From positions 1 through 60,741 of IMG/VR virus record IMGVR_UViG_3300031576_000045: a DNA stretch of 60,741 nt, one strand, 5' to 3'. Position 1 is the stretch's first letter; every line of letters begins with the position of its first letter. The position numbers and the translations under genes were made by a program. Origin of the DNA: a virus. Under the pieces are notes generated by a model. The model was not told the DNA's origin, ran no database searches, and worked only from the letters and a program-made list of their open reading frames with translations. This document shows, piece by piece, positions 1,565 through 41,352 of the stretch.

Positions 1565-2524
1565 ATGACGAACGAGAAGACGAAGGCAGTCGCCGCGGTC
1601 GTGGCGCACCTCGAGAAGCAGTACGGCAAGGGCATCATCCAGCAGCTGGGCACGCCGTCTGAGCAGCAGGTGGCGGTGATCCCGACCGGCAGCGTCGGAC
1701 TCGACCGCGCGCTCGGGTGCGGCGGGTGGCCGCGCGGCCGGGTCGTGGAGATCTTCGGGCCGCAGGCGGGCGGGAAGACGACGCTCGCGCTCCACGCGGT
1801 CGCGCAGTGCCAGGCGCTCGGCGGCGTCGCCTCGTTCATCGACGCTGACCATGAGCTAGACATGGCGTACGCGCGCCGCGTCGGCGTGCGCGTCGAAGAC
1901 CTGCTCGTCTCGCAACCCGACACGGGCGATCAGTCGCTCGACGTCTGCGAGAGCCTCGTGCGGTCTGGCGCGATCGACCTGATCGTCGTCGACTCCGTGC
2001 AGTCGCTCGTGCCGCGATCGGAACTCGAAGGTGACGAGACGGTCGAAGGCATTCACGCACGTCTCATGTCGCAGGCACTGCGGAAGCTGACCGCCGCGAC
2101 GTCGCGGTCTGGCACGGTGATCATCTTCCTGAACGCGCGCACGCCCGGAGAGCAGATGACGGGGGGCAACTCGCTGAAGTTCTACTCGTCGGTGCGCGTG
2201 GAGCTCGGCCGCGTCGGCAACCTGAAGGACGGCGACGCGGTTGTCGGGTCGCGCGTCGGCCTCAAGGTCGTGAAGAACAAATGCGCGCCGCCGTTCGCGG
2301 TCGCCACGTTCGATCTCACGTATGACCGCGGCGTGCACCGCGAGGCCGAAGTGATCGATCTCGGCGTCGACTGCGGCCTGATCGAGAAGACCGGGTCGCA
2401 CTACGTGCTCGCCGGTGAGCGCATCGGGCAGGGGCGGGAGCGCGCGATCGAGTGGCTACGCGAGCGGCCGGCAGTGACCGAGGAGCTGGCGCAGAAGATT
2501 CTCGCGACCCCGGTGAAGCCGTGA
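1565..2524 (+). CDS. recA: RecA-like recombinase with shortened L2 loop
   Basis: 319 aa from the ATG preceded by the GGGAGAACGACG cassette; an upstream in-frame GTG at 1487 would add a non-conserved leader. RecA core motifs are clear: Walker A GPQAGGKTT (65-73), FIDADHELD (91-99), LLVSQPDTG, AIDLIVVDSV and LMSQALRKLT. Two features are odd. The catalytic Glu of the FIDAEHALD motif is Asp95 here. The L2 DNA-binding loop between FLN190 and TGGN is only about 8 residues, and the conserved Gln of FINQIR is absent. The C-terminal domain is short. It probably promotes strand pairing during phage recombination, but activity and ATP turnover may differ. It is present only in the left version of the duplicated locus. 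GTGA overlap with the next gene. Confidence 0.92.
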   Translation: MTNEKTKAVAAVVAHLEKQYGKGIIQQLGTPSEQQVAVIPTGSVGLDRALGCGGWPRGRVVEIFGPQAGGKTTLALHAVAQCQALGGVASFIDADHELDMAYARRVGVRVEDLLVSQPDTGDQSLDVCESLVRSGAIDLIVVDSVQSLVPRSELEGDETVEGIHARLMSQALRKLTAATSRSGTVIIFLNARTPGEQMTGGNSLKFYSSVRVELGRVGNLKDGDAVVGSRVGLKVVKNKCAPPFAVATFDLTYDRGVHREAEVIDLGVDCGLIEKTGSHYVLAGERIGQGRERAIEWLRERPAVTEELAQKILATPVKP

Positions 2525-2913
2525 CCTACGCCGACTGGATCGCCGCGTTCGTCGCGCGGCACCGCGGGTTCGTCCGCGGCAAGTGCGACGCCGCGACGAC
2601 GGAGATGGTCGCCGCGTTCCCCGAGCTGCGCCGCGCCGCTGGGTTTGCTCACGTCTCGTGGGGTCGCGATCAACACTGGTGGTGCGTCGCGCCCGACGGC
2701 CTGATCGTCGACCCGACCGCGGCGCAGTTCGGCCCGGCCGGCACGCCGATCTGGTACGAAGAACTCGACTTGAACGACCCGGCGACGCGGGCCCGCGTGC
2801 CGACGGGGAAGTGCATGGACTGCGGCGGCGAGGTCTACGGCAGCGCGACGTTCTGCAGCGACGCCTGCGAGAAGGCGACGCGCGAGTACCACGCGGGGGT
2901 TTCGCTCCGATGA
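2521..2913 (+). CDS. Putative transglutaminase/cysteine-protease-like fold protein with zinc knuckle
   Basis: 130 aa starting at the GTG that overlaps the recA stop. The N-terminal part has a C-H-D type arrangement: Cys in RGKCDAAT, His in DQHWWCV, Asp in LIVDPTAAQF. This resembles papain-like/transglutaminase-like phage proteins and suggests a catalytic triad. The C-terminal part has CMDCGG and CSDAC, a four-Cys zinc site. The substrate is unknown; assignment rests on motif spacing only. Confidence 0.6.
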   Translation: MTYADWIAAFVARHRGFVRGKCDAATTEMVAAFPELRRAAGFAHVSWGRDQHWWCVAPDGLIVDPTAAQFGPAGTPIWYEELDLNDPATRARVPTGKCMDCGGEVYGSATFCSDACEKATREYHAGVSLR

Positions 2914-3185
2914 AGAACTACGACGCGATTATCGTGCGGAAGCACGGCGTGCGCATCAAGGCGGGCACGGCGCGAGAGAACCGCGACGGGTCGGTCGAGA
3001 TCCACCTCGACGTGCTGCCGGTCGAGGGCGTGCTGAAGCTAGAGGTTCGCGACGCGACCCCGCCGAAGACATGGCACGTCGGCGACGATGTGTGCCCGTA
3101 CTGCGGCGCGATCGGCTGCAAGCTGCGCGCGGCCGAGACTCCGCACGGCACGGCGCTGCACGAGAAGCAGAAGGGAGGCAGGTAG
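2910..3185 (+). CDS. Small protein with CPYC zinc-ribbon-like motif
   Basis: 91 aa from the ATG in an ATGA overlap. The N-terminal 55 residues are predicted beta-strand (DAIIVRKHGVRI, GSVEIHLDVL, GVLKLEVRD). CPYCGAIGC lies at about residues 65-73, followed by two His. No family recognised. It may bind zinc through the Cys/His cluster. Confidence 0.6.
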   Translation: MKNYDAIIVRKHGVRIKAGTARENRDGSVEIHLDVLPVEGVLKLEVRDATPPKTWHVGDDVCPYCGAIGCKLRAAETPHGTALHEKQKGGR

Positions 3186-5654: not shown

Positions 5655-6037
5655 AGCCCGGCGAGCTGCACAAGGTGCACGCGGCGCACGACCGCAAGGC
5701 GAAGTCCCTGCGCGTCGACGTCGGCGACGTCGCGTGGCGCGGCGAGTCCGGCGCGCACGCCGTCAAGGCCGCCATGGCGCTACGTCTCGCGGTCTGCTGG
5801 AACGTCTGCGAGGGCATCCAGACCGACAAGCTCGAGGCCGGCGTGCTGCTGGACTACTACGTCGCGGTCGACCGACTGATCGCCGCCGTCGACGAGCCGC
5901 AAGGTCGACTCTTCCACAGCGCGGAGAAGGTGCTTGAGCTGATGCGCCTCGCGGCGCGGGTGAAGGAAGCGCAGCGACGGATCGGCGTCGAGCACTTCGA
6001 GTGCCTCGCGTGCGACGCGAAGAAGGAGACCGCGTGA
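5651..6037 (+). CDS. 128-aa helical protein with CLAC motif, left copy
   Basis: GTG start in GTGA. Largely alpha-helical, with a C-terminal ECLACDAKKE motif. The other copy at 60222-60608 differs at only a few residues. Unknown function. Confidence 0.7.
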   Translation: MKPGELHKVHAAHDRKAKSLRVDVGDVAWRGESGAHAVKAAMALRLAVCWNVCEGIQTDKLEAGVLLDYYVAVDRLIAAVDEPQGRLFHSAEKVLELMRLAARVKEAQRRIGVEHFECLACDAKKETA

Positions 6038-6288
6038 AACCCGTCGGGGTCCGAACCGAGGTCGACGGGAAGATCGTCGTCGAGTGGCACGCGCCGCCGA
6101 TCGGCGGGCCCGATTACCACACACTGTGTTGCGTCGACGCCGACGACCCGGTGACCGGGACGCACGGGACCGTCGATCCGAGGAAGGCCCAGAAGATCAC
6201 CTGCGCTCAGTGCCATCGCGTGTGGTCGGGCGTGCTGGGGCTGCACCTGAAGCCGGAGGACTTCGACCACAAGGTCGTGTTGCGGTAG
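6034..6288 (+). CDS. 84-aa protein with CxxC motif, left copy
   Basis: GTG start overlapping the upstream stop. Contains YHTLCCVD and ITCAQCHRVW, giving a possible four-Cys zinc site. The homologue at 59709-59963 lies before, not after, the 76- and 128-aa genes, so gene order differs between copies. Function unknown. Confidence 0.7.
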   Translation: MKPVGVRTEVDGKIVVEWHAPPIGGPDYHTLCCVDADDPVTGTHGTVDPRKAQKITCAQCHRVWSGVLGLHLKPEDFDHKVVLR

Positions 6289-6310
6289 GACTGGAGACGG
6301 GAGAACGACG

Positions 6311-6517
6311 ATGAAGAGAGACGACCTGACCGCGCTGCGCAACGGGCTGCTGCGCATGCACTACGAGCCGCCGACCAGCGGGTTGACGAAGTGGACGCTG
6401 CAGCTCATCCGCGACCTGGAGGGAGAAGTCAGAATCCACTGGGAGAAGTCGAAGGGCGCCTACGACCGCGGGTTCACCGAGGGCCGCGCCTTCGCGAGAA
6501 AGCCGGCCCGTCGATGA
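6311..6517 (+). CDS. 68-aa protein
   Basis: The ATG lies directly after the GGGAGAACGACG cassette (6299-6310). A basic helical protein (MKRDDLTALRNGLL, then HWEKSKGAYDRGFTEGRAFARK). The 5' portion recurs, identical as far as it goes, at 60631-60741. Stop overlaps the next ATG. Confidence 0.7.
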   Translation: MKRDDLTALRNGLLRMHYEPPTSGLTKWTLQLIRDLEGEVRIHWEKSKGAYDRGFTEGRAFARKPARR

Positions 6518-7149
6518 GCCTGCAGCCGAAGCCGATCATCATGTCGACGCCGATGGTGCTGTCGCTGAACGACGACGCGAAGACGCAGACCCGGCGCACG
6601 TCTGGCCTGGAAGGGTTCTCGCGCGCGGCCGTCGTCGCCGGGTATGAGACTAAGGGCCGCGACTTCTTCGCGCGGATCACGCAGCCAGACCGACGCGGGG
6701 ACCCGTGGGAGGCGATGGTCAAGTGCCGTTACGGCGGACCGGGCGGGCAGCTCTACGTACGCGAGGGCGTGCGGCGGAAGCCGGCCGACCCGAATGATCG
6801 CGGCTGCTGCGCCGAGTACATCGCCGACCGGGCGCCCGCGCCGTGCGACACGTGGGGCTGGAAGAACCCGGCGCTGCCAGCGATCCACATGCCCTCGGGC
6901 ATGTGCCGGCACCGGTTGGAGCTGATCGAGATCAGAATCGAGCGCGTGCAGTCGATCTCCGAGTCCGACGCGCGCGCCGAGGGAATCCGCTCCAGCGGGC
7001 CGGGCGTGTTCTTCTGGCCTGGCGCAGACCGGAACTACGCGACGGCGGTCGCCGCGTACATGCACGGGTGGGTCTGGCTCAACGGTCAAGGCTCGTGGGA
7101 CCTGAACCCGCTCGTCTGGGTCCTCTCGTTCAAGCAGGTGTTGCGGTGA
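6514..7149 (+). CDS. ASCH-like phage protein
   Basis: 211 aa. It matches a widespread phage family of ASCH-type fold: an N-terminal segment of the form PIIMSTPMVLSLNDDAKTQTRR, a central YVREGVRR, PAIHMPSGMCRHRLELIEIRIERVQ, SESDARAEGI, and a C-terminal WDLNPLVWVLSFKQV. ASCH domains have a PUA-like fold associated with RNA binding or modified-base chemistry; some act on N4-acetylcytidine. The substrate here is unknown. Confidence 0.75.
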   Translation: MSLQPKPIIMSTPMVLSLNDDAKTQTRRTSGLEGFSRAAVVAGYETKGRDFFARITQPDRRGDPWEAMVKCRYGGPGGQLYVREGVRRKPADPNDRGCCAEYIADRAPAPCDTWGWKNPALPAIHMPSGMCRHRLELIEIRIERVQSISESDARAEGIRSSGPGVFFWPGADRNYATAVAAYMHGWVWLNGQGSWDLNPLVWVLSFKQVLR

Positions 7150-7680
7150 CGGAGACCGAGGTCATTCGCATGCTGCGCGAGGCGCTGATCGAGGTCTCGC
7201 GCGTCGAGCAGCGAGACGTACGGAACGACAAGCCGTGGACGATCCACGACGGCGACAGCTACGCCGACCTGGTGCGCTCAGAGGAATCGCGCAAGGCACT
7301 GGAACGCGGCCGTCGACGCGATCGCGGAGTCGGCCAAACCGGCGACGTCCGAGCTGGCCGACAAGCTCCACCTGACGAACGTGGTCCTCGATGAGCTCAT
7401 GCGCACCGGCGCCGTCGAGGTCAGCAAGCTCGCGCGCACGATCGCGGCGAAGATCCGTCACCCGAACGTCGACCTCTACGCGTTCTTCCGGTCCGGAGAG
7501 CCGATCCCGATCGTGCTGCAGTCGCCGAACGTCGTCTCGCTCGCCCACGTGGTGAGCATGGAGACTCAGCTAAACGTCAGCGGCATGATGGTGCGAATCG
7601 AGCTCCGTGTCTTCGATCGAGACCTGCGCGAGGCGACCTCGGGCTTGATCGGCCCGCCAGAGACCGGGGATCAGAGATGA
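7146..7680 (+). CDS. Hypothetical protein with +1 frameshift
   Basis: A GTG start at 7146 opens a coding-like frame (MTETEVIRMLREALIEVSRV, DGDSYADLVRSEE). Near 7300 the good coding signal moves by one base into the frame that contains VDAIAESAKPATSELADK, HLTNVVLDELM and then VNVSG-like beta strands to the stop at 7680. The first frame runs on to 7394 with Arg-rich, shadow-like sequence. I see no slippery heptamer, so an indel or a sequencing error is more likely than programmed shifting. Function unknown. Confidence 0.5.
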
Positions 7681-7911
7681 GCCCGCTGACCCGAATCACC
7701 CAAGCCGCGGTCGAGGTCGACGTTCGGGACGGCGACTTCATGGCGCTTCAGGAACACATGCGCATGTGCCGCCACTGCCGGGCGCTGCTCGACCGCGGCT
7801 CGACTCGTGGAGCAGTTCATGCGCAAGGGAGACTCGTATGCCGATGTTCGGAACGACGCTGTACGACGAGACCGGAAGGCCGATGGGGATCGCCTGCCAC
7901 CGGGGGCGTAG
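7677..7911 (+). CDS. Small protein with CxxC, probably frameshifted
   Basis: Starts at the ATGA overlapping the previous stop. The first about 38 residues include MRMCRHCRALL. Near 7790-7795 the coding signal moves by one base into LVEQFMRKGDSYADVRND and stops at TAG 7909-7911. Staying in the first frame would run to 8168 across the next gene with low-complexity composition. The GDSYAD segment recalls the upstream gene. Confidence 0.4.
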
Positions 7912-8365
7912 GAGCGCCGGCCGCTGCAGCGTCTGCGCGGTGCCGCGCTCGGAGCTGGAGTGCGACGGCTGCGACAAGGCGCTATGCAAGACGTGCGCTG
8001 TATCGCCGCGCGCCGGTCTCGACTTCTGCCAGACGTGCTTCGACCCGGCGTGGAAGCGCTGGCTCGGGATGCAGCCGAGCTCGGCCGCGGCCATGTCGCG
8101 CGAGAGGCGGCGCGCCGAGTTCCGCGCGTGGGCCCGGAAGGCGTGCGACGTCTTCCTCTCGCTGGTGAAGCTCAGCCCGACGTCGGAGGCGGACGCGCGG
8201 TCGAAACGGGCGATGGGGTTGGGCCTGTCTCCGCACGCGCTGTGGAAGCAGGCGGGCGGCGTCATCGTCGACGGCGTCGTCACGGTCGAGGCCGACCGAC
8301 AGAAGTACACCGCGCTGCTGGTCGAGCATGGGTTCCTCGTACCGAAGAAGGAGACCACGCCGTGA
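7838..8365 (+). CDS. Cys-rich zinc-binding protein, 175 aa
   Basis: The ATG is preceded by AAGGGAGA. An N-terminal CSVCAVPRSELECDGC, CKTC and CQTC series gives eight or more Cys in the spacing of a double zinc finger (B-box/FYVE-like arrangement). The rest is a helical region with DVFLSLVKLSPTSEADAR. Function unknown; a protein- or nucleic-acid-binding role is plausible. Confidence 0.6.
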   Translation: MPMFGTTLYDETGRPMGIACHRGRRSAGRCSVCAVPRSELECDGCDKALCKTCAVSPRAGLDFCQTCFDPAWKRWLGMQPSSAAAMSRERRRAEFRAWARKACDVFLSLVKLSPTSEADARSKRAMGLGLSPHALWKQAGGVIVDGVVTVEADRQKYTALLVEHGFLVPKKETTP

Positions 8366-8661
8366 TTCTCACTCTGGACATGGACGACTTGTCGATCCCG
8401 CTCCCGTGCGGCTGCCGCGTAACCGACCTCAAGGTCTTCATCGACGGCCGAGAGACGCCCCGCGTCTTTCGTATAGAGGCACACCGCCGCTCGACGCTCG
8501 AGAAGGCGCACCAGTCGGCAAGACGCTGGACCATCTACCGGTACGCCGAGAACGAGAAGCACGGGATCATCGTGCACAACGGCGAGCCGCTGCTGTTCGT
8601 CACCGTGACCTGCAAGCCGGTGGAGCTGCGGTGCAAGCACCACCCGGAGCGCACGCCGTGA
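8362..8661 (+). CDS. Hypothetical protein, 99 aa
   Basis: GTG start in GTGA. Beta-rich with CGCRV, CKPVEL and CKHH, suggesting a metal site. No family recognised. The stop overlaps the next start. Confidence 0.6.
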   Translation: MILTLDMDDLSIPLPCGCRVTDLKVFIDGRETPRVFRIEAHRRSTLEKAHQSARRWTIYRYAENEKHGIIVHNGEPLLFVTVTCKPVELRCKHHPERTP

Positions 8662-8885
8662 CACCCATCGACCTGCGCAAGCTGGTGAACTCTGCCGAGC
8701 GCGCCTCGTGGGCGCTCCACCGTCTCGCCGCGGCTGCCGAGGCCATCGTTCTTCGCGGTTACGGCTCAGTCGGGACGCCTGAGAAACCGTGCGCGCGGTG
8801 CGGCTCCATGCTGCAGAGGTACGGCTCTACGCCCGGCGTCTGTCTCGCATGCGGCCTGGTCGAGAACGCTGCGCCGGTCGAGTGA
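8658..8885 (+). CDS. Zinc-ribbon protein, 75 aa
   Basis: GTG start in GTGA. The N-terminal helix (LVNSAERASWALHRLAAAAEAI) is followed by CARCGS and CLACGL, a standard four-Cys zinc ribbon. Last gene of the plus-strand block; it converges on the minus-strand lysis genes 4 bp away with no evident terminator. Confidence 0.65.
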   Translation: MTPIDLRKLVNSAERASWALHRLAAAAEAIVLRGYGSVGTPEKPCARCGSMLQRYGSTPGVCLACGLVENAAPVE

Positions 8886-8888
8886 CCA

Positions 8889-9329
8889 TCACCGCGGCAG
8901 CCAACGCGCCGCGGTCCAGCCGACGTACCCGCCGAGCGCAAGGCCGACCACCAGCGCGATCGCCGAGAAGAGTAGCGACGTCGTTCCGAGCGGCGGGGGC
9001 GCGACCTCGAGCTGCTTGCGCCGCTCGTCGCAGGTGACCAGCAGACACGCCTGACGCGCGGCCCGCTGCGGCGGGAGACGCCACGAACCGTCGGCGTCCT
9101 GCGTCGCCGGCTGCGTCGGGTCGTTCGCCGGGCACTGCGCGTAGAGCGCGTCCCCGTAACGCCCGGCGTCGGGCGCGCCGCCGTCGAACTCGAGGGCCCC
9201 GGCGTCAGGAGCCTCGCTCAACCGCTCGAAAGTATGAGCCGACCCGCGGGCCGCCTGCGGCAGGAGCGCGGCGAGCACCACGGCGGCGATCGCTCGCCCT
9301 GCGCCCGTTTTGGCGACCTGGCTGGGCAT
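8889..9329 (-). CDS. Secreted/membrane protein of the lysis cassette
   Basis: 146 aa with an N-terminal signal-like segment (AIAAVVLAALLPQAARGSA), a Pro/Asp-rich external region with three Cys, and a C-terminal transmembrane helix (SLLFSAIALVVGLALGGYVG). It is the last gene of the late operon, next to holin- and endolysin-like genes. A spanin-type or envelope role fits its place, but no lipobox is seen. Confidence 0.55.
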   Translation of the reverse strand: MPSQVAKTGAGRAIAAVVLAALLPQAARGSAHTFERLSEAPDAGALEFDGGAPDAGRYGDALYAQCPANDPTQPATQDADGSWRLPPQRAARQACLLVTCDERRKQLEVAPPPLGTTSLLFSAIALVVGLALGGYVGWTAARWLPR

Positions 9330-29945: not shown

Positions 29946-30179
29946 TCAGCCTCCGAAGAGAACCAGCAGGAACAGCGCGGTCACGAACGAGCCGAGGACG
30001 ACGCCGATGGTGAACGACGCCAGCGTCGACGGCCGCTCGAACGAGGTTGGGTGCAGCCAACCGCACTTGTTGCAGAACTGATCCGCCAGGTACTGGCACT
30101 CGCGCCCGTCGCGTGGGCGCAGGTGCCGGGTGCCGACGAGGACGGAGAAGCCGTGCATTCGCGCAACGTACCTCGTCAT
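29946..30179 (-). CDS. Small membrane protein with CxxC, 77 aa
   Basis: The ATG at 30179 overlaps the terminase stop in ATGA. The N-terminal part has CQYL and CNKCGW; the C-terminal part is a single transmembrane helix (TIGVVLGSFVTALFLLVLF). Role between terminase and portal is unknown. Confidence 0.55.
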   Translation of the reverse strand: MTRYVARMHGFSVLVGTRHLRPRDGRECQYLADQFCNKCGWLHPTSFERPSTLASFTIGVVLGSFVTALFLLVLFGG

Positions 30180-31720
30180 GAAGTCCACGGCGACTCGCGC
30201 GTGCCTTCGAGGTCTGGCTCTGCAGACGGCGCCGGCCCGTCGCCGTGCTCCTCGAGCAGCCACGCGTAGCCGCCCGACGCGGCGTCGGCCTGGTCCTTGT
30301 AGCCCTTGGGCAGCTGCACCAGCTCGTTCACGAAGTCGCGGTTCCATGCGCCGCGCACAAGGTACAGCGCGCCGAAGCGCGCGATGCCGGCGAGCGGGCG
30401 CCACATCTCTTCCTTGCTGCCGGTCTTGTGGTGCTCGTGCACGTCCCACCCGCGCAGGGTGCGCACCGCGTACCCGCGGACGACGGCCTTCCCCGAGCTG
30501 CCGGGCTCGCGCTCGATCGCCACCGGGACCTCCTTCCCGTCGGTCTCGGCCGTCGCGCGCACGAACAGCTCGACGTCGCCGGGCTCAAGTCGCGCGCGCA
30601 CGGCGTCGGCGATGATGACTCGCATCGCGCCGGCCTCGTCGAACCACAGCCCGACCTTCACGCCGGCAGACCACGCCGGGTCCTTACCCTCGTTCTCCTC
30701 GAGCTCGGGGTCCGTGCCGGCGAGGTCCCAGTAGCGCACCCACTGCACGTCGGCCGGCTCTTCTTCCAGGAACCGCGCGAACCACTCGCGCTTGAAGATC
30801 TTGCCCGACGGCTGCGCGTCCCAGTCGCCCTCGGCGTACCAGGCGTACTCGACCGGGTCGAGCTGCGCGAGGTTGAGCAGGTACCCGCGCCGGTCGAGCG
30901 ACGGGTTGTCGTCGGCGAACGCGGGCACGAAGTGCGCGCCCTGCGCGACGACGCCGAGCTTCCGGGCGATCTCCTTCACCTGCTCGGACGGCGGCGACTG
31001 GAAGACCGGGAGACCGACGCGGCTCCCCTTGCGCCATCCCTTGTACGGGTGCCCGGTCCCGAGCTGCGCGGCGTGCTCGACGAAGCGCGCCTTCACCCAC
31101 TCGTGGCCGACGCCGCCCGGGTTCGTGTTCGCGCGCATCCGCGTCGGGATCTTCGCGTCGGTGCTGCGCAGGCGGGAGAACAGGAAGACGTAGTCCCCCT
31201 CGTCCCACTCCGTCAGCTCCTCGACACCGATGAACTGGTAGGCCGGGCCCTTCCACTTGTCGCGGTCCTTCGTGAACTTCAGGTGGCCGAACGAGATCGT
31301 CGCGCCGGGATTCGAGTCGTACGTCGGGAACCTGAACCCCAGCAGCCCGGCGTCCCACTGCGCGGCCGTGCCGGCGAACCACTTCTTCGCGCGGTCGAGG
31401 ATCGCGTCGGCCTTGAACAGGTCGGTCTCGCTGCGCCGGAGGATCAGCGCCGAGTACGTCGGTCGGTCGACGTACTGCAGCCCGGCCAGCAGCAGTGCGT
31501 CCGACTTCCCGCCGCCCGCGGCTCCGCCGTACAGGCACTCCTGCGCGTCGAGCTCAAGGAACGTCCGCTGCTTTGGGTGCGGTGAGTGGGGGCTGTACGG
31601 CTTCACCGCCACCCGGAGCGTCTCGTCCGCCCGGTCGCGACGGATCTCCATCAGCTTCAGCGCCGCTCTTTCCGCCAGCGAGGGCATGTAGCGCGCGCTC
31701 GTAGCCTTGTATGTCGTCAC
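30176..31720 (-). CDS. terL: Terminase large subunit
   Basis: 514 aa. Walker A YGGAAGGGKSDALLL, Walker B YQFIGVEELTEW, and motif III-like TNPGG. The nuclease part has VRYWDLAGTD with catalytic Asp, a downstream E-x-E and DQADAASGGYAWL. ATPase-nuclease motor that packages DNA into proheads. Start GTG at 31720 with GGAGG nearby; it overlaps the 3' end of terS. Confidence 0.92.
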   Translation of the reverse strand: MTTYKATSARYMPSLAERAALKLMEIRRDRADETLRVAVKPYSPHSPHPKQRTFLELDAQECLYGGAAGGGKSDALLLAGLQYVDRPTYSALILRRSETDLFKADAILDRAKKWFAGTAAQWDAGLLGFRFPTYDSNPGATISFGHLKFTKDRDKWKGPAYQFIGVEELTEWDEGDYVFLFSRLRSTDAKIPTRMRANTNPGGVGHEWVKARFVEHAAQLGTGHPYKGWRKGSRVGLPVFQSPPSEQVKEIARKLGVVAQGAHFVPAFADDNPSLDRRGYLLNLAQLDPVEYAWYAEGDWDAQPSGKIFKREWFARFLEEEPADVQWVRYWDLAGTDPELEENEGKDPAWSAGVKVGLWFDEAGAMRVIIADAVRARLEPGDVELFVRATAETDGKEVPVAIEREPGSSGKAVVRGYAVRTLRGWDVHEHHKTGSKEEMWRPLAGIARFGALYLVRGAWNRDFVNELVQLPKGYKDQADAASGGYAWLLEEHGDGPAPSAEPDLEGTRESPWTS

Positions 31721-32234
31721 CGAACGCCTCCTTCAGCCGGTCCAGAGCGCCGTCGAACTCTCCGGCGATGTGCAGTCGGACCTGCGGCACGAACTCCTCG
31801 GGGTCCGTGATCGCCCCGAGCGCCTGAGCTGCGCGCCAGTCGCCCGGCTTCTTCGCGGTCCCCTGCGCCGCGCGTCTGATCTGCAGCTTCAGCAGCGTTC
31901 GACGTCGCGCGCCGGCCCCCTCTATCAGCCGGGCGAACAGGACATAGACGCCGGGGTCGTCGGCCTGGGCCAGCTTGCCCGCGCGGCCCTTCTCGAGCCA
32001 CTGCTGCCCGGTGTCGTACACGACGCCGGACGTGAGGCACGCGTCCTTGAACGACGCGGAGTTCGCCACGCGGTCGGCGATCTCCTGCGCGATGGCGGCG
32101 GTCAGGGCGGTACGCCGGCCCGGCATCGTCGGGGGCAGCGGCCCCTGAGCGGGAGCTGCCGCAGCCGGCGCCGGCCGGACTCGCCGGAGCTTCCGCCGCC
32201 GCGGGTGCTTCTTCTTCGTCGTTCTCCGCGCCAC
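31554..32234 (-). CDS. terS: Terminase small subunit
   Basis: 226 aa with GTG start. Basic N-terminus (RRTTKKKHPRRRKLRR), then an HTH-like ALTAAIAQEIADRVANSASFKDACL, GVVYDTGQQWLEKGRAG and FARLIEGAGARRRTLLKLQIRRAAQG. This fits TerS proteins that bind pac DNA. The long overlap (167 bp) with the large subunit is unusual; the last about 55 residues are Gly/Pro-rich and may be dispensable. Confidence 0.7.
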   Translation of the reverse strand: MARRTTKKKHPRRRKLRRVRPAPAAAAPAQGPLPPTMPGRRTALTAAIAQEIADRVANSASFKDACLTSGVVYDTGQQWLEKGRAGKLAQADDPGVYVLFARLIEGAGARRRTLLKLQIRRAAQGTAKKPGDWRAAQALGAITDPEEFVPQVRLHIAGEFDGALDRLKEAFGDDIQGYERALHALAGGKSGAEADGDPSRPGGRDAPGGGEAVQPPLTAPKAADVP

Positions 32235-33399: not shown

Positions 33400-33770
33400 C
33401 AGCGCTTCACCGCCGCGCAGAGCGGCGCATGGCCGGTCATCTCTTCGCTGTCCTCGTAGCTGCACGTGCATTGCCTTGACCTCCACGCGTCGACGGCAGC
33501 GAGCACCGCGCGCTGCCCGTCGGCCGGCGTCGGTCCGAGCTCGTCCTTGAGCGCGTCGAACTGCCGCAGCTTCTTCCCGCGCATGATGCAGACGATCTCG
33601 AACCATCCCATCCCGCCTCGCGACGCGAGCTTCTCGAGATCCTGGTCGTGGTTCTCGATCGCCTGCCGCTCGAACTGTTGGATCCACGCCCACGGCACGG
33701 AGTGCGGCGGCGGCGTCTTTCGACGGTCCTCAGACAGCACCGGGAACTGTCTCTCTTGCTCGTTGCTCAC
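33399..33770 (-). CDS. Conserved phage protein, 123 aa
   Basis: GTG start in GTGA. PPPHSVPWAWIQQFERQAIENHDQ then LEKLASRGGMGWFEI is a pattern that I recognise from many phage early regions, without a known role. The C-terminal CTC and C-A-A-V are possibly metal-related. Confidence 0.6.
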   Translation of the reverse strand: MSNEQERQFPVLSEDRRKTPPPHSVPWAWIQQFERQAIENHDQDLEKLASRGGMGWFEIVCIMRGKKLRQFDALKDELGPTPADGQRAVLAAVDAWRSRQCTCSYEDSEEMTGHAPLCAAVKR

Positions 33771-34261
33771 GCGGCGTCCCGACTGCGCCCGATCAGCTTC
33801 TCGAAGAACGCGCGGGCGCGTGCCGCGTTCTTCGGTTCGTTCCACCATCGATTCAGGCCCGACGGGTGCGGCACGATCGCGAACTCCGTCTGCCGGTCGT
33901 CTCTGAATTTGAACCACTCGAACCAATCCCACGATGTCAGCGCGCCGAACGCGTCGGCGACGTTGCGGCCGACGAGCAAGACGTGCGTCCGAGACCACAC
34001 CTGAGGCTGAGTAAGCGTCGGCGTGCCGAAGAGAAGATCGCGGCCGACGTCGCGGGCGCGCGCGGCCGGCCACCTCGGGCCAGGGTACTCGTCGATCAGG
34101 TTCACCGCGTCGACGTTGCCGACGCCGGACGCCGACGAGCGCGTGACGCGCAGGCCCATCTCCCACAGCCTCTTCGCGCTGCGCTGCCGGCCGTAGAACG
34201 GCGGCCACCCGGGCGGCGTCGTGCGCGCCGGCGCCTCGCCGATCAGCAGCGGGCGCGTCAC
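33767..34261 (-). CDS. Uracil-DNA glycosylase-superfamily protein
   Basis: 164 aa, GTG start in GTGA. LLIGEAPARTT at the N-terminus, VDAVNLIDEYPG, HVLLVGRNVADAFG and IVPHPSGLNRWWN near the C-terminus are the motif 1, core strand and motif 2 (HPSG-x-N) of the UDG superfamily. It may remove or sense modified bases. It sits next to the DNA modification genes. Confidence 0.7.
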   Translation of the reverse strand: MTRPLLIGEAPARTTPPGWPPFYGRQRSAKRLWEMGLRVTRSSASGVGNVDAVNLIDEYPGPRWPAARARDVGRDLLFGTPTLTQPQVWSRTHVLLVGRNVADAFGALTSWDWFEWFKFRDDRQTEFAIVPHPSGLNRWWNEPKNAARARAFFEKLIGRSRDAA

Positions 34262-35079
34262 GTCGTCACCCGTGGAAGCGGCGAGGTCGGGATTGAGCCG
34301 CCCTCCCCGGTGGTGGTGCCACCGGGCGAGCCTTTTTCGCCGCGCTTCGGGTACGGCTGCCGTCTCTTCTCTACCATCTCTGCGAGTCTCTCGTCCTTCG
34401 GGTCCAGCAGGAAGACGTAGCGGCCCTTCGGGTTCGCGGTCTGCCGCTTCCACCCGTCGGCGAGAAGGCGCGCCTCGACCTGCTTGTTCGTCATCCCGGT
34501 GCGGCGCGCGTAGTCCGTCTGCTGGTTGAGGCTCCACAGCCGGCCCTTCGGGCTGACCCACTGCGGCCACGCGTCGCCCTTGCCGACGAAGGTCCAGTTC
34601 GTCGCCTGGTACACGGTGCCGATCTCCCCGGCGTCGGAGTCGGAGAACGCGATCGCCAGCTTCGAGCCGCGCTTCGCCTCGAGCTTCAGCGAGTAGCCGA
34701 TGAGCTTGGAATTCGTCCCGACCGGCGCCCAGTGCACGCACGCGCCGCGCACGAGGTAGGCGAGCTCGTGGTTCTCGATGCCGAACGACTTCGCCAGCGC
34801 CGGGAGCGCCTTCCCCGCTGGCGTCCAGCACGTGACGCCGGCGACGTACGGGCCGAACGAGAGGCCGTAGCACCGGTTCGTCGCGGTGCCCATGGTGCCG
34901 AGCCACTCGTACTTGAAGATGATCTGCTTCGCGACGTCGTACGCGACCGGGCCGACGCGCGCGGTCTTCAGGCTCAGGTCGACGTCCGGCGCCGGCTCGT
35001 GCTGGTGACGGTCGCGCAGCTGCTTCTGCCACGCGACGCCGCCCGACTCCTGGATGCTACGAAACGTGTGTCTCGACAC
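34258..35079 (-). CDS. Mom-like DNA base modification protein (GNAT fold)
   Basis: 273 aa. The core matches Mu Mom-type acyltransferase-fold proteins: AKQIIFKYEWLGTMG, YGLSFGPYVAGVTCW, VRGACVHWAPVGTNSKLIGYSL, LAIAFSDSDAGEIGTVYQATNWTFVG. Mu Mom converts adenine to N6-carbamoylmethyladenine and protects phage DNA from restriction. The C-terminal 90 residues (WSLNQQTDYARRTGM and basic tail) are additional. The 3' end of the ParB-like gene overlaps its 5' end by 23 bp, suggesting a joint pathway. Confidence 0.75.
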   Translation of the reverse strand: MSRHTFRSIQESGGVAWQKQLRDRHQHEPAPDVDLSLKTARVGPVAYDVAKQIIFKYEWLGTMGTATNRCYGLSFGPYVAGVTCWTPAGKALPALAKSFGIENHELAYLVRGACVHWAPVGTNSKLIGYSLKLEAKRGSKLAIAFSDSDAGEIGTVYQATNWTFVGKGDAWPQWVSPKGRLWSLNQQTDYARRTGMTNKQVEARLLADGWKRQTANPKGRYVFLLDPKDERLAEMVEKRRQPYPKRGEKGSPGGTTTGEGGSIPTSPLPRVTT

Positions 35080-35656
35080 CTGGCACCTTCGCGATCGCCT
35101 CGACGTGGGCGCGGATCTTCTCGAACGCCGCGCGCGTGCACCTGACCTCGACGTAGACCTCGGACTCCAGAGACGGCTCGCCGGTCGGGTTCTGGTCCGG
35201 CAGCTCCAGCGAGGCGATCAGTTCGTCGACGTCGTCGCGCTCGAACCCGGTGCCGGCCAGCGCGTCGTCGCCCCACCCGGAGATCATGTCGACCAGCTCC
35301 GCGCGGTTCCAGTCGCCCTTCGCGACGAGGTTGTTGACCGCGACCAGGAACGCCTCGGCGTCGGCGTCGTTCTTCGACGACCACCCGCGCTGCACGGGGA
35401 TCAGCCACCGGTCGCCGTCGACCTCGACGCCGTCGGGCGGCGGCGCACCCTTCTTCTTCAGCGCCCCGAGCGCGTCGAGCCGACCGTGACCGCCGACGAT
35501 GCGTCCGGTTCGCTCGTCGTAGATCATCCCGTCGGCGTACCCGAACCGCGCCACCGACGCTTCGAGGTCTTCGTCGGCGTGCTTCTTCGGGTTACGCGCC
35601 GCCCGACGAATCTCGTCTAGCGGCATGTACTCCGTCCAGCGCTTCTGTTTCTTCAC
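35057..35656 (-). CDS. ParB-like nuclease-domain protein
   Basis: 199 aa. Residues about 10-60: MPLDEIRRAARNPKKH, LEASVARFGYADGMIYDERTG, RIVGGHGRLDAL, the ParB N-terminal/sulfiredoxin-like motif set (GGHGR). In phages such domains often accompany DNA methylases and Mom-like genes and may act as CTP- or nucleotide-binding specificity factors. The C-terminal half contains an NNLVAKGDWNRAELVDMIS segment. Confidence 0.8.
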   Translation of the reverse strand: MKKQKRWTEYMPLDEIRRAARNPKKHADEDLEASVARFGYADGMIYDERTGRIVGGHGRLDALGALKKKGAPPPDGVEVDGDRWLIPVQRGWSSKNDADAEAFLVAVNNLVAKGDWNRAELVDMISGWGDDALAGTGFERDDVDELIASLELPDQNPTGEPSLESEVYVEVRCTRAAFEKIRAHVEAIAKVPGVETHVS

Positions 35657-35886
35657 TGGACCACCTCGACGTTGCGCGCGTTGACGATCTCGATCTGCTC
35701 GTACTCGCGACGGCCGTCCTTCTCGAAGACCGTCGGGGCGAAGAATACCGCGCGGTGCGGCACACCCTGATCGCGGGGGTCGAACGCGCAGACGACCGAC
35801 GGAAAGTCGTCGTCGTCGTCGACGGGCAGCTCGGCGGTGAACCGCACACCGCCCGCCGCGTTCAGGGTGACGCGCCGACCGCTCAT
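35653..35886 (-). CDS. Hypothetical protein, 77 aa
   Basis: ATG at 35886 in ATGA overlap. RRVTLNAAGGVRFTAELPVDDDDDFPSVV and AVFFAPTVFEKDG, a small beta-strand protein. No family recognised. It belongs to the modification operon by overlap. Confidence 0.55.
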   Translation of the reverse strand: MSGRRVTLNAAGGVRFTAELPVDDDDDFPSVVCAFDPRDQGVPHRAVFFAPTVFEKDGRREYEQIEIVNARNVEVVQ

Positions 35887-36176
35887 GCCTCGGCCTTCGG
35901 CTTCTCTTCCTTCTCCGCCTTCTCCTTCCACGCCTTGATCGTGACCTTGTCCTCGGCGGTCAGCTTCACGTGGATCGGTGGGGCGGCCTCGGTGTCGACG
36001 TACTCCTTCACGCCGTGCTCGCGCATCGTCGCGATCAGCGACAGCTTCGTGTCGCGACGCTTAACCGCGGCGCGGGTGTGGCTGTTGATCGCGCTGCGGT
36101 GCTCGTCGGCCTTCTCGATCACCTTCTTGTGCACCTTCGCCCGCTCAGTACCAGGCACCTCGATCTGTCTCGTCAT
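35883..36176 (-). CDS. Hypothetical basic/acidic protein, 97 aa
   Basis: The GGGAGAACGACG cassette (36177-36188) precedes the ATG. Helical, Lys/Glu-rich, with HVKLTAEDKVTIKAWKEKAEK at the end. No family recognised. Confidence 0.6.
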   Translation of the reverse strand: MTRQIEVPGTERAKVHKKVIEKADEHRSAINSHTRAAVKRRDTKLSLIATMREHGVKEYVDTEAAPPIHVKLTAEDKVTIKAWKEKAEKEEKPKAEA

Positions 36177-36218
36177 CGTCGTTCTCCCACTGCGTTCGCG
36201 CTGCGTTGGACTGCCACG

Positions 36219-37955
36219 TCAGAAGGGAATTTCATCGTCCGGAACCGCCGTCGTCGACGCCGGCTCGACGGGAGGCGTGAACCCGATCGCCGGCTTCTCC
36301 ATCGGCCACCGTTGCTTCTCGTACGCCTCGACGGCCGCGGCGAGCTTCTTCAGTCGCTGCCCATCGGGCGTTCCGTCCTTCGGGTCGAGGGCGACGAGTC
36401 GAGTCACCTCGGCGAGCGCGGCCTCGTGCTGCGCGTCGTCGATGACCGGCATCGCTCCCATGGCGAACGCGTCGACGACCGTCACCAGCTCTCCGTTCAC
36501 GGCCGGCACGGGCTTGTCGAGCTTCCAGTCGACGGGCTTGTACTTGTAGAACTTCGCGCACGTGCCGCGGTGCTTCTTCAGCGCGTCGAGGTCGGGGAAC
36601 TCGGCGTGACACGTACCGCACTCATACGTCGGCCCAGACAGAACAGAACTCGACCCGCCGTGCTGGGAGAACGACGGGCCGCCAGGAGGTGAAGCCGGCG
36701 ACTCTTCGATTCTAGGCGTGGCGGGTCGAGCTGCTGCCGGCGCAGCGTCGCCGCTGTCGGTCGGCTTCGCAAGCTCGCTGCCGGTGCCCTCCCAACCGGG
36801 CCGCGTCTTCCGCGCGAACATCTCGAGCCGCGGGCCCATCGGGCAGAGCTTGATCAGGTCTTCGTAGAAGACGTCGGGCTTCGCGGAGTGCTCGCCCACC
36901 GGGGCGCGGAACGACGTGCGCTGGATCGGGTTCCCGTGCTCTGCGCCGGTCGGGTTGTACGCGACGTCGCCGCGCACGAAGTAGATCGCGTGCTCGGTGT
37001 CTCCGCGCAGCGGGTCGCCGATGCCGCAGAAGTCCGAGCCGTCGGCCTCGGTCTTCACCCACGTGCGGATCTGCCGGGCCCGGAACCCGCGCGCCTCGAT
37101 CGACGCCTGCACGACGGCCCACGTCTTCAGGTCCAGCAGGATCGGGTTCGTCACCCAACAGACGAGCAGGCAGTTCGCCGCGGCGGGGATCGGGAACGCG
37201 CAGATCTCCTCGACCGTCATCGGTGGGTACGGTAGCGCGCCGGCCTGCGACTCGTTGCCCTCGCGCTTGTCGCCGTACGTCCACGAGTAGTCGACGGAGA
37301 TCACCGCGAACTCGCCGGGCGGCGGCTTGTACTGCTTCGCGAGCGCGAGCTGCCCGCGCTTCCGGATGCGGCGCTCGGCCTGCTTCACCGTCAGCTCACC
37401 GGCGAAGACCTGCTTCGCCAGCGCGGGGTCCGTCTTGGTGACGAACTCGGCCCGCTCGACGGTGCGCGAGGAGACCTTGTAGCCCGAGGAGTCAGAAGCG
37501 ATCTGCGCGGCGGACTTCGACGGCGCCTTCTTCGCCGGGCGCTTGCCGCTCTTGCGCTGCGTGTTCGTGTCGCGCGCGGCTTGGCGCTGACGCTCCTTCG
37601 CCTCGGCGCGCAGCATCGGCAGCAGGCGTGCGGCGACCATCGCGCGCTGCGACTCGTTCAGGTGGCGGCGGTCGACGTTCGCGCCCTTCACGAACTCAGC
37701 GACCGACTTCCTCCCGTGCTTCGTCTCCGCGTACCACTCGACCACAAGAAGCTCGGTCGTCGGCGCGAGCTTCTTCTCGGAGACGAGCTGGCGGATCGCC
37801 TCTTGTCGGTTGCGGCCGTCGAGGAGCTTCCCGTCGAGGATGACCGCGGCGAACAGCTGGCCCTGCGAGACGATGCTCTGCTTGAGAGCGTCCATCTCCG
37901 ACTGCTTCATCGGCGGCAGCGTCAGCGCTGCCCCGTGCGGCTTATAGATCCTCAT
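36219..37955 (-). CDS. ParB-like/MT-A70-like/zinc-finger fusion protein
   Basis: 578 aa, ATG after the GGGAGAACGACG cassette (37956-37967). Residues about 10-60 are ParB-like (LFAAVILDGKLLDGRNRQEAI). About 100-205 hold a basic linker. About 215-385 are an MT-A70 adenine methyltransferase-like domain (MTVEEICAFPIPAAANC, LLVCWVTNPILLDLKTW, RTSFRAPVGEHSAKPD, RLEMFARKTRPGWEG). The DPPW catalytic motif is D-Y-S-W (222-225). A C-terminal CGTCHAEFPDLDALKKHRGTC is a C2H2/C3-like finger. Catalysis may be lost or altered; a DNA-recognition role in modification is plausible. Confidence 0.75.
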   Translation of the reverse strand: MRIYKPHGAALTLPPMKQSEMDALKQSIVSQGQLFAAVILDGKLLDGRNRQEAIRQLVSEKKLAPTTELLVVEWYAETKHGRKSVAEFVKGANVDRRHLNESQRAMVAARLLPMLRAEAKERQRQAARDTNTQRKSGKRPAKKAPSKSAAQIASDSSGYKVSSRTVERAEFVTKTDPALAKQVFAGELTVKQAERRIRKRGQLALAKQYKPPPGEFAVISVDYSWTYGDKREGNESQAGALPYPPMTVEEICAFPIPAAANCLLVCWVTNPILLDLKTWAVVQASIEARGFRARQIRTWVKTEADGSDFCGIGDPLRGDTEHAIYFVRGDVAYNPTGAEHGNPIQRTSFRAPVGEHSAKPDVFYEDLIKLCPMGPRLEMFARKTRPGWEGTGSELAKPTDSGDAAPAAARPATPRIEESPASPPGGPSFSQHGGSSSVLSGPTYECGTCHAEFPDLDALKKHRGTCAKFYKYKPVDWKLDKPVPAVNGELVTVVDAFAMGAMPVIDDAQHEAALAEVTRLVALDPKDGTPDGQRLKKLAAAVEAYEKQRWPMEKPAIGFTPPVEPASTTAVPDDEIPF

Positions 37956-39697: not shown

Positions 39698-40056
39698 CGC
39701 GCAACCGTCCTTTGCTGCCGTACCAGATTGCCCTTGCGCCGATCGCGCGCGTGGGCGCGGTGATAGGCCGTCTCACACACAGGGTCTCCGCAGTGTTTGG
39801 GCGCCTTGCGTCCAGGTTTTTCTGGCGGCAGAGGATCGAGACAGAACGGACACCGGCCGTCCGGCGTCCGGTCTCGCATGCGCTCGAGGCCCGGCGCCGT
39901 CGTCTTCCGTCGACCCTTCTTCGTGCCGAACCCGAGCTTCGCCCGGCGCATGCGCTCGGCGCGCGCCTTCCACCACAGCCGGCACTTCCGCGCGCCGCAC
40001 GTGTTCCGACGTCGGTCCGCGATGGGGCCGCCGCAATGGAGGCAGCGGTCCGTCAC
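39694..40056 (-). CDS. Cys-rich zinc-finger protein, 120 aa
   Basis: GTG at 40056 in GTGA. CLHCGGPIADRRRNTCGARKC, then CPFCLDP and KHCGDPVCETAYHRAHARD. Two Cys4-type clusters separated by a Lys/Arg-rich linker, similar to HNH-associated treble-clef domains. Likely binds nucleic acid. Confidence 0.6.
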   Translation of the reverse strand: MTDRCLHCGGPIADRRRNTCGARKCRLWWKARAERMRRAKLGFGTKKGRRKTTAPGLERMRDRTPDGRCPFCLDPLPPEKPGRKAPKHCGDPVCETAYHRAHARDRRKGNLVRQQRTVAR

Positions 40057-40934
40057 GCTGCTCTCGCGATGGGGAATTCCTGGCGCTGCAGCTCGCGCGG
40101 CCAGAGCGTCGGCTCGTCGCCCTTCCCGAGGCACGAGATCGGCTTCGTGACGCCGGCGATCGTGTCGACGACGTTCGATCCCTTCTGCTTCATGAAGAAG
40201 GCGACATTCGCGTCTTCGCACTGGCGCTTGATGTTGCGCGCCCACTGCAGGTCGAACGGCCGCGCGTCCTCGGTCGCGCCCTCGTCGCTCTCGCCGCCGA
40301 CGATGACCCAGCCGACCTGCTCGAACGCCGGGTGCGACGCGAAGTCGACGTCGCTCAGCAGCGGTTCGGCGCTGATCCAGTAGAGCGCAGCGTCGACGCG
40401 CAGCAGGTGGTCGAGACGCGAGACGTACGCCTGCGACTCGACGGTCGTCCCGAGCCACACGTGCGGCCAGTCCTCGCCGGGCGGCGGGCAGTCGACGCGT
40501 TCCTTCTCGAACCCGGTCTTCAACGTCACGCCGGCCGGGATCGACGTCGGCCAGAGCCGTGCGATGTTCTCGGGGCGCTTGGTCAGCAGCTGCCAGGTGA
40601 GCGCGGGCGTCGCCCGAATGAGCGCGAACAGATCGGGCCGCACCTCGCTCCAGGTTGGGTGATCTTCGAAGACGTCGGAGAGGCTCGCGCAGAAGACGAG
40701 GTGGCGCTTCCTCAGCGCGATCGCCGCCCTGTTCCAGCGCAGGGCGTTGTTCCAGGTCGAGCGCGAGGTGCGGTAGCGCGGCGCGGTCGGGCCCCAGTGC
40801 GCCTCGCCGCCCCACCGCTTCCGCGCGTCCTGCACTTCGGCATAGCAGAGCTGGCAGCCAGGGCTGACGCGCTGGCACCCAATCACTGGATTCAGGGTGC
40901 TGTCTGTCCATGTAATGCCTGTGCTCTCTCCCAT
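40053..40934 (-). CDS. DUF5131 (phage Gp37/Gp68) radical-SAM-like protein
   Basis: 293 aa. TGITWTDSTLNPVIGCQRVSPGCQLCYAE at the start gives the Cys cluster of this family. HLVFCASLSDVFEDH, TWQLLTKRPENIARL, WLGTTVESQAYVSRL, YWISAEPLLSDVDF and GWVIVGGESDEGATEDARPFDLQWA follow. The family is common in phages and mobile elements near DNA modification or defence genes. The reaction is not established. Confidence 0.85.
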   Translation of the reverse strand: MGESTGITWTDSTLNPVIGCQRVSPGCQLCYAEVQDARKRWGGEAHWGPTAPRYRTSRSTWNNALRWNRAAIALRKRHLVFCASLSDVFEDHPTWSEVRPDLFALIRATPALTWQLLTKRPENIARLWPTSIPAGVTLKTGFEKERVDCPPPGEDWPHVWLGTTVESQAYVSRLDHLLRVDAALYWISAEPLLSDVDFASHPAFEQVGWVIVGGESDEGATEDARPFDLQWARNIKRQCEDANVAFFMKQKGSNVVDTIAGVTKPISCLGKGDEPTLWPRELQRQEFPIARAA

Positions 40935-40935
40935 T

Positions 40936-41352
40936 TTACGCAGCCCTCCGTTTCGCATTGATGCGTTTCCAGAATTCTGACCCGCGCGGAGTCCGCGCCC
41001 GGTCGTGCGCGCGGCGACACTCGCGACACAATCGATTTCCATTCGTCTTTTTGATTGTGTTCTCCGTGGTGAACTCATGTCCACGCGCGCAGTGCGTCCA
41101 CGTCGCTCTGCCATCGCGGCGGGCGTGGCACATCGTGCAGACCGACTGGACGTCATGGTGATGCTCTGCCGCGTAGCCGAGGTGGTGATCGTATTCGTGT
41201 CGGCGTTCGCCAGGACGCCACACGTGGCCGCAATCTGTACACGGCAATGTATTAGGATGCGGTCTACGCCCCGTCCTCACCTCGACGTTGACCCGTTGTC
41301 TGGCCTGGATCTTATCTCCATCGCGCGGCGGCTTCGGCTTGGGTCCGGACAT
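40936..41352 (-). CDS. HNH endonuclease-like protein, 138 aa
   Basis: ATG at 41352 overlaps the minigene stop in TGATG. LPCTDCGHVW, HEYDHHLGYAAEHHHDVQSVCTMCHARRDG, then a second module THCARGHEFTTENT and LCRECRRAHD. The first is an HNH core with zinc Cys; the second is a repeat often following phage HNH domains. Confidence 0.7.
   Translation of the reverse strand: MSGPKPKPPRDGDKIQARQRVNVEVRTGRRPHPNTLPCTDCGHVWRPGERRHEYDHHLGYAAEHHHDVQSVCTMCHARRDGRATWTHCARGHEFTTENTIKKTNGNRLCRECRRAHDRARTPRGSEFWKRINAKRRAA

Follow-up and report, generated by a model that had tools for sequence, protein, structure and literature searches.

The window analysed here is a stretch of 60,741 bases (~68% GC) that makes up the virus record IMGVR_UViG_3300031576_000045 of IMG/VR, and it contains a minus-strand cassette in which two genes and one RNA are packed into each other. 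The gene for a 273-residue GNAT-fold protein of the Mom family of DNA adenine modifiers (34258..35079, GTG start) carries a tRNA-Gly-like RNA nested in its 3' end (34273..34343). The start of this mom gene overlaps by 23 bp (35057..35079) the gene for a 199-residue protein with a ParB-CTPase fold (35057..35656). The four genes that the original prediction had placed here, namely these two, a UDG-like gene and a gene for a ParB-MT-A70 fusion, were confirmed at their positions as open reading frames (ORFs) on the minus strand.

Profile comparisons place the 273-residue protein within the Mom family. It matches PF25680 with 66.3 bits (cut-off 27.1) over profile positions 3-202 of 202 and phrog_1384 at 4.5e-23, while a profile built from nine Mom relatives matches phage Mu Mom (8bv8) at 2.2e-30. 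Residues R111, D147 and Y157 are invariant in alignments of 9 and of 20 Mom proteins and align with 8bv8, where we take their equivalents to be active-site residues. The protein is thus a true Mom, a member of a known family as had been anticipated, and its activity in DNA adenine modification is predicted. A profile scan of IMG/VR yielded 71 Mom loci. Alignment-based scans succeeded in finding relatives; single-protein scans with the window Mom or the window fusion protein returned none, and the alignment of nine Mom sequences was unsuitable as a scan query because of its diversity. Mom proteins of the closest clade are 40-48% identical to that of the window (the clade range is also given as 39-50%). 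Unusual arrangements of the gene occur elsewhere in the family: L023 has a tandem pair of overlapping mom genes (1656-2429 and 2392-3180), and in L073, L075, L076, L077 and L079 Mom lies within long ORFs of about 490-600 residues, probably fused to further domains, with the long ORF of L076 present twice in tandem (5950-7449 and 7431-9191).

The partner gene encodes a member of the phage ParB-like families phrog_620/498/723 (2.5e-22 against phrog_620), in which reading of the sequence reveals a GGHGRL motif. In Foldseek its predicted fold matches ParB-CDP 7bnk at E 5e-4 with a probability of 1.00, the TM being low at 0.34-0.37. The overlap of the two genes is conserved among relatives, where the junction alignment displays TINIS in one frame and SRLTFR in the other. 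In the closest clade, the ParB gene lies directly upstream of mom and overlaps it in every locus having upstream sequence; it is read from the same strand and starts 445-742 bases ahead of mom. The overlap had been part of the original prediction and stands; the constancy of the ParB neighbour throughout the closest clade likewise supports its proposal that Mom, with ParB as a partner, hypermodifies adenine. Upstream of the ParB-mom pair in L011, a 76-base Rfam tmRNA match (2575-2650) spans model positions 1-374.

At the 3' end of mom, a cloverleaf is present in all 11 loci of the closest clade, where it was located by position and without a tRNA model. In the window, the RNA has an acceptor stem GCGGCGA/TCGCCGC, an anticodon-like stem of eight pairs closed by a five-nucleotide loop CACCA (anticodon ACC), and a T-arm GGCGG-CTCAATC-CCGACC followed by TTCCA, which encodes the CCA end; the D-arm is missing. 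Its folding z is -3.36, none of 200 shuffles being as stable, and it scores 40.3 bits with covariance model R1 and 43.7 bits with R2. Over the same bases the closest-clade Mom proteins share the C-terminal tail GG(A/S)xPTxxL. A reading of this tail as a protein motif was rejected, because translation of mom in L014 stops ahead of the T-arm while the DNA beyond remains conserved, indicating that the RNA, not the peptide, is under conservation.

The closest-clade RNAs bear a uniform glycine signature. In each of the 11 the anticodon is one for glycine, either UCC or ACC, and G1-C72, C2-G71 and U73 are invariant among them. Together with C35 and C36, these positions form the main identity set of bacterial glycyl-tRNA synthetase. 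Features of a decoding tRNA, on the other hand, are absent from the window RNA, which has neither a D-arm nor a seven-nucleotide loop with U33 and carries A at position 34 of its CACCA loop. ARAGORN makes no call for the element, and Rfam, RF00005 included, returns no match up to E 5 between positions 33900 and 35200 of the window. Among the RNAs more widely, position 33 is often not U, and an ACC anticodon is practically absent from bacterial tRNA-Gly. Because of the ACC anticodons, the frequent lack of U33 and the missing D-arm of the window copy, the RNA is probably a non-decoding mimic of glycyl-tRNA.

Support for the structure comes from covariation. Model R1, built from five sequences, matches the remaining clade members as well as five more distant Mom loci (L009, L035, L062, L064 and L067). 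In the resulting alignment A10, 96.3% of cells pair and 20 of the 22 pairs show two-sided changes. Its covariation reaches 0.774, compared with 0.192 when shuffled (0/500 shuffles) and at most 0.115 with slid partners; the alignment was fitted to R1 and is hence biased towards the model, but the slid controls fall far below nonetheless. Over whole records, R1 gives a single match, at mom, in each small record with a match, and matches away from mom in the larger records G047-G049, W04 and W08. None of the 50 phage records from the MT-A70 scan holds an element of the R1 type. The element is also found in the cultured phage Shade (L009). The Mom regions of nine further cultured phages gave no R1 match, and R2 matched one of them, that of Pseudanabaena phage Pan3 (L208), overlapping the end of its Mom gene. 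Carriers of the element are spread over several deep branches of the Mom tree, those with the element 5' and those with it 3' of mom falling mostly in separate clades, and Mu is placed among carriers with weak support.

The linkage of RNA and Mom also emerges from the opposite direction. The IMG/VR viral contigs were scanned with a 29-base pattern that describes the T-arm and the acceptor end but contains neither Mom information nor the anticodon, and it matched at least 80 loci; the figures given here cover the matches listed, and U73 and CCA were forced by the pattern. All 80 listed loci hold the full fold. Mom adjoins the element in 75 of them, and the other five end 33-347 bases upstream of the element. 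By comparison, Mom is found in 0/103 MT-A70 loci (Fisher 6.5e-46), a control that is not a random phage sample. In alignment A11 of 81 listed matches, 98.2% of cells are paired and covariation is 0.675 against 0.149 when shuffled, with the T-stem invariant because the pattern fixes it. The anticodon reads NCC, for glycine, in 79 of 79 readable loops, a count that includes close relatives; the 50 loops of five bases comprise TCC (27), ACC (21) and CCC (2).

These results bear on whether the element is an ordinary tRNA-Gly gene, supplying codons or left as an integration remnant at tRNA-Gly, that came to lie near mom by chance or through cassette mobility. Some observations are in keeping with such an origin: R2 also matches a genuine tRNA-Gly in a Hafnia genome, ARAGORN calls the copies in L067 and L236 tRNA-Gly, and in Microbacterium phage Appa an annotated tRNA-Gly(ccc), encoded on the other strand, directly follows mom (L002:8663-8737). 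However, Mom would hardly adjoin 75 of 80 listed loci by chance, ARAGORN is silent on most loci tested, and the ACC share of the five-nucleotide loops, the frequent departures from U33 and the lost D-arm of the window all speak against a decoding role, which makes this explanation distinctly improbable.

The position of the element is equally informative. It lies on the mom strand in 75 of the 75 listed loci with Mom, 3' of the gene in 46 and 5' of it in 29, and is more than 700 nucleotides away in four. A cis-acting element could overlap gene ends between genes of one operon, as is seen here, and would act as an RNase P/Z processing signal or as a translational control, keeping mom apart from the next gene or regulating the two, in the manner of Com and its site in Mu; PMC6483171 describes control of mom translation by the zinc-finger protein Com on the Mu mom mRNA. 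Placement on either side of mom, or at distances beyond 700 nucleotides, fits a trans-acting partner better, and a cis role leaves the invariant glycine anticodon, U73, G1-C72, C2-G71 and the CCA unexplained. We therefore regard cis action as unlikely, though it is the best of the alternatives.

What the RNA might contribute follows from the chemistry of Mom. To our knowledge, the donor for the phage Mu Mom modification is not settled. The Mom product carries a carbamoylmethyl (glycinamide-like) group on adenine N6 and is named methyl-carbamoyladenine or ncm6A (PMC8281217). A review that assigns Mom to the GNAT superfamily of acyltransferases suggests that the donor is an acyl-CoA, for instance glycyl-CoA (PMC7824862). 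Since the product amounts to adenine plus a glycine-sized group and the RNA bears a glycine-charging signature, we propose glycyl-tRNA as the donor. We consider it likely that a Mom-type cassette for adenine hypermodification lies in the window just ahead of the packaging genes and comprises Mom, its ParB-fold partner and a dedicated RNA resembling glycine tRNA that would act as glycyl donor. For the family at large, we favor on balance the view that Mom is an aminoacyl-tRNA-dependent DNA modifier, moving glycine to adenine N6 from a tRNA that is often a non-decoding mimic encoded by the phage within mom or next to it.

The proposed pathway would proceed as follows. Once transcribed, the RNA would be excised by RNase P at its 5' end, the CCA being already encoded, and the glycyl-tRNA synthetase of the host would charge it with glycine. 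Through its GNAT fold, Mom would then transfer the glycyl group from the RNA to adenine N6 in the phage DNA, probably shortly before packaging. The resulting N6-glycyl-adenine, an isomer of the known Mom product, could be converted to that product intramolecularly, with the glycine amine attacking C6. As a guess, the ParB-like protein may bring Mom onto the DNA. Phage Mu would use host tRNA-Gly instead.

Several observations weigh against the glycyl-donor proposal. No such RNA was found near Mu mom, nor nearby in 44 of the 122 Mom loci of the tree set, so that at these loci the glycine would have to come from host tRNA-Gly, unless the function of the RNA is a different one. The copy in the window is itself divergent, with no D-arm, one extra U ahead of the CCA and a moderate score. 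The limits already given for the scan count here too, namely the forced U73 and CCA, the MT-A70 control and the close relatives behind the anticodon count. Another role would be that of an uncharged scaffold or targeting factor for Mom, recognized for instance by its fold. Linkage and structure would be accounted for equally well by a scaffold, but the synthetase identity elements, the CCA and the match between glycine and the Mom product would not, and we assign it a small probability. We found no open-access paper linking Mom to tRNA, and no Mom-RNA complex in the PDB, where 8bv8 was the only Mom entry matched.

Downstream of the cassette in the window lie the genes for the small (31554..32234, minus strand; phrog_4102, 1.3e-6) and large terminase subunits (30176..31720, minus strand; phrog_979, 1.4e-88). 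In the closest clade, the start of the large terminase gene follows mom at a distance of about 1.0-1.7 kb, and the terminase assignments were confirmed with Pfam and PHROGs. These terminases belong to different families and are mostly not alignable to one another, while the Mom proteins retain their 40-48% identity, suggesting either transfer of the cassette from one packaging module to another or its persistence while the modules beside it were replaced. The terminase was considered as the partner of the RNA and set aside, as in Shade and Pan3 the RNA accompanies mom although the stretch displayed carries no annotated terminase. Immediately after mom follows a gene for a UDG-superfamily-like protein (33767..34261, minus strand), whose GTG start at about 34261 overlaps the mom stop. 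Its match to PF03167 is weak (9e-4; 19.7 bits, below the Pfam cut-off of 24.3); it also matches phrog_12275 and contains GEAPART and HPSGLN motifs. None of the Mom relatives examined has a UDG-like gene adjoining mom.

Upstream lies the gene for the 578-residue fusion protein (36219..37955, minus strand). Its MT-A70 domain (PF05063, 8.5e-17) has a METTL3/MTA1 fold, its N-terminus is ParB-like by alignment to ParB-MT-A70 relatives, and a C-terminal stretch also matches phrog_10398; the joining of these two parts, previously read from the sequence, is thus upheld by profile, fold and alignment. The zinc finger ascribed to it corresponds to a C2H2 match at residues 444-463, which is weak and below cut-off. 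Motif IV reads DYSW (codons GAC TAC TCG TGG) where 107 of 118 aligned MT-A70-profile ORFs have DPPW and the rest have DPAW, DPAF, DPPH or none of these, part of that set having been found through a pattern that includes motif IV. The remaining conserved MT-A70 positions are kept. Methyltransferase activity of the fusion is probably impaired. Motif IV is altered in a second case too, a ParB-MT-A70 fusion at L084:5929-7188 with DPPH for DPPW. In Mesorhizobium phage vB_MseS-P1 (L006:5339-7137), a ParB paralogue lies directly upstream of a ParB-MT-A70 fusion with a near-identical N-terminus. This phage also has a DUF5131 protein near its ParB-MT-A70 gene, and another is encoded at 40053-41156 of the window (7e-62).

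The original prediction had joined Mom, the ParB-like protein and the fusion into one adenine pathway whose chemistry the fusion may direct rather than perform. Adjacency of the genes on one strand is compatible with it, and the replacement of DPPW by DYSW, which suggests loss of methyl transfer, lends some support to the part that denies the fusion a chemical role. Membership in the pathway does not hold up. In the co-occurrence check that had been suggested, the Mom-ParB pair recurs, but MT-A70 is found in 2 of 57 Mom-bearing records and this fusion in none of them, and two small genes intervene between the fusion and the ParB-Mom pair. MT-A70 was rejected as a Mom partner on this co-occurrence; we regard the fusion as a neighbor rather than a conserved component of the Mom system, and a joint pathway of the three proteins appears very improbable. 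The partner that Mom needs is more likely the RNA, which the original prediction had overlooked.

If glycyl-tRNA is indeed the donor, the source of the Mom group would be answered, and the translation machinery would be tied to DNA modification and phage anti-restriction. The novelty would lie in the charged-tRNA donor, as the enzyme family is already known; we know of no other case in which a charged tRNA supplies the group for modifying a DNA base. The elements also define a class of structured RNA; since they frequently overlap coding sequence, most of them escape the searches run here with ARAGORN and Rfam.

Comparison with known systems helps to place the cassette. In phages or archaea, fusions of ParB with N6/N4-methyltransferases or with MT-A70 (phrog_498; PMC12704722), the latter reported from archaea, similarly unite a ParB-CTPase fold and an enzyme that modifies adenine. 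In the window, however, the ParB protein paired with Mom is encoded by a separate overlapping gene, and the MT-A70 fusion has lost DPPW. Mom of phage Mu belongs to the same enzyme family, and there too a short upstream gene overlaps mom. The upstream partner in Mu is the zinc finger Com rather than a ParB-fold protein, and the window mom differs further by its nested RNA. With the Rfam tRNA family RF00005, the RNA shares acceptor, anticodon and T arms, an encoded CCA and the glycine identity set, while the window copy, lacking the D-arm and with an ACC anticodon in a five-nucleotide loop, goes undetected by it. Leucyl/phenylalanyl-tRNA-protein transferase likewise combines a GNAT-like fold with an amino acid taken from aminoacyl-tRNA, although its substrate is protein and it has no dedicated RNA. 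In staphylococcal FemX/A/B, a GNAT-fold transferase uses glycyl-tRNA, with dedicated copies of a non-proteinogenic tRNA-Gly(UCC) that are poorly used in translation; there, the target is peptidoglycan instead of DNA, and the tRNAs are not embedded in the gene of the enzyme.

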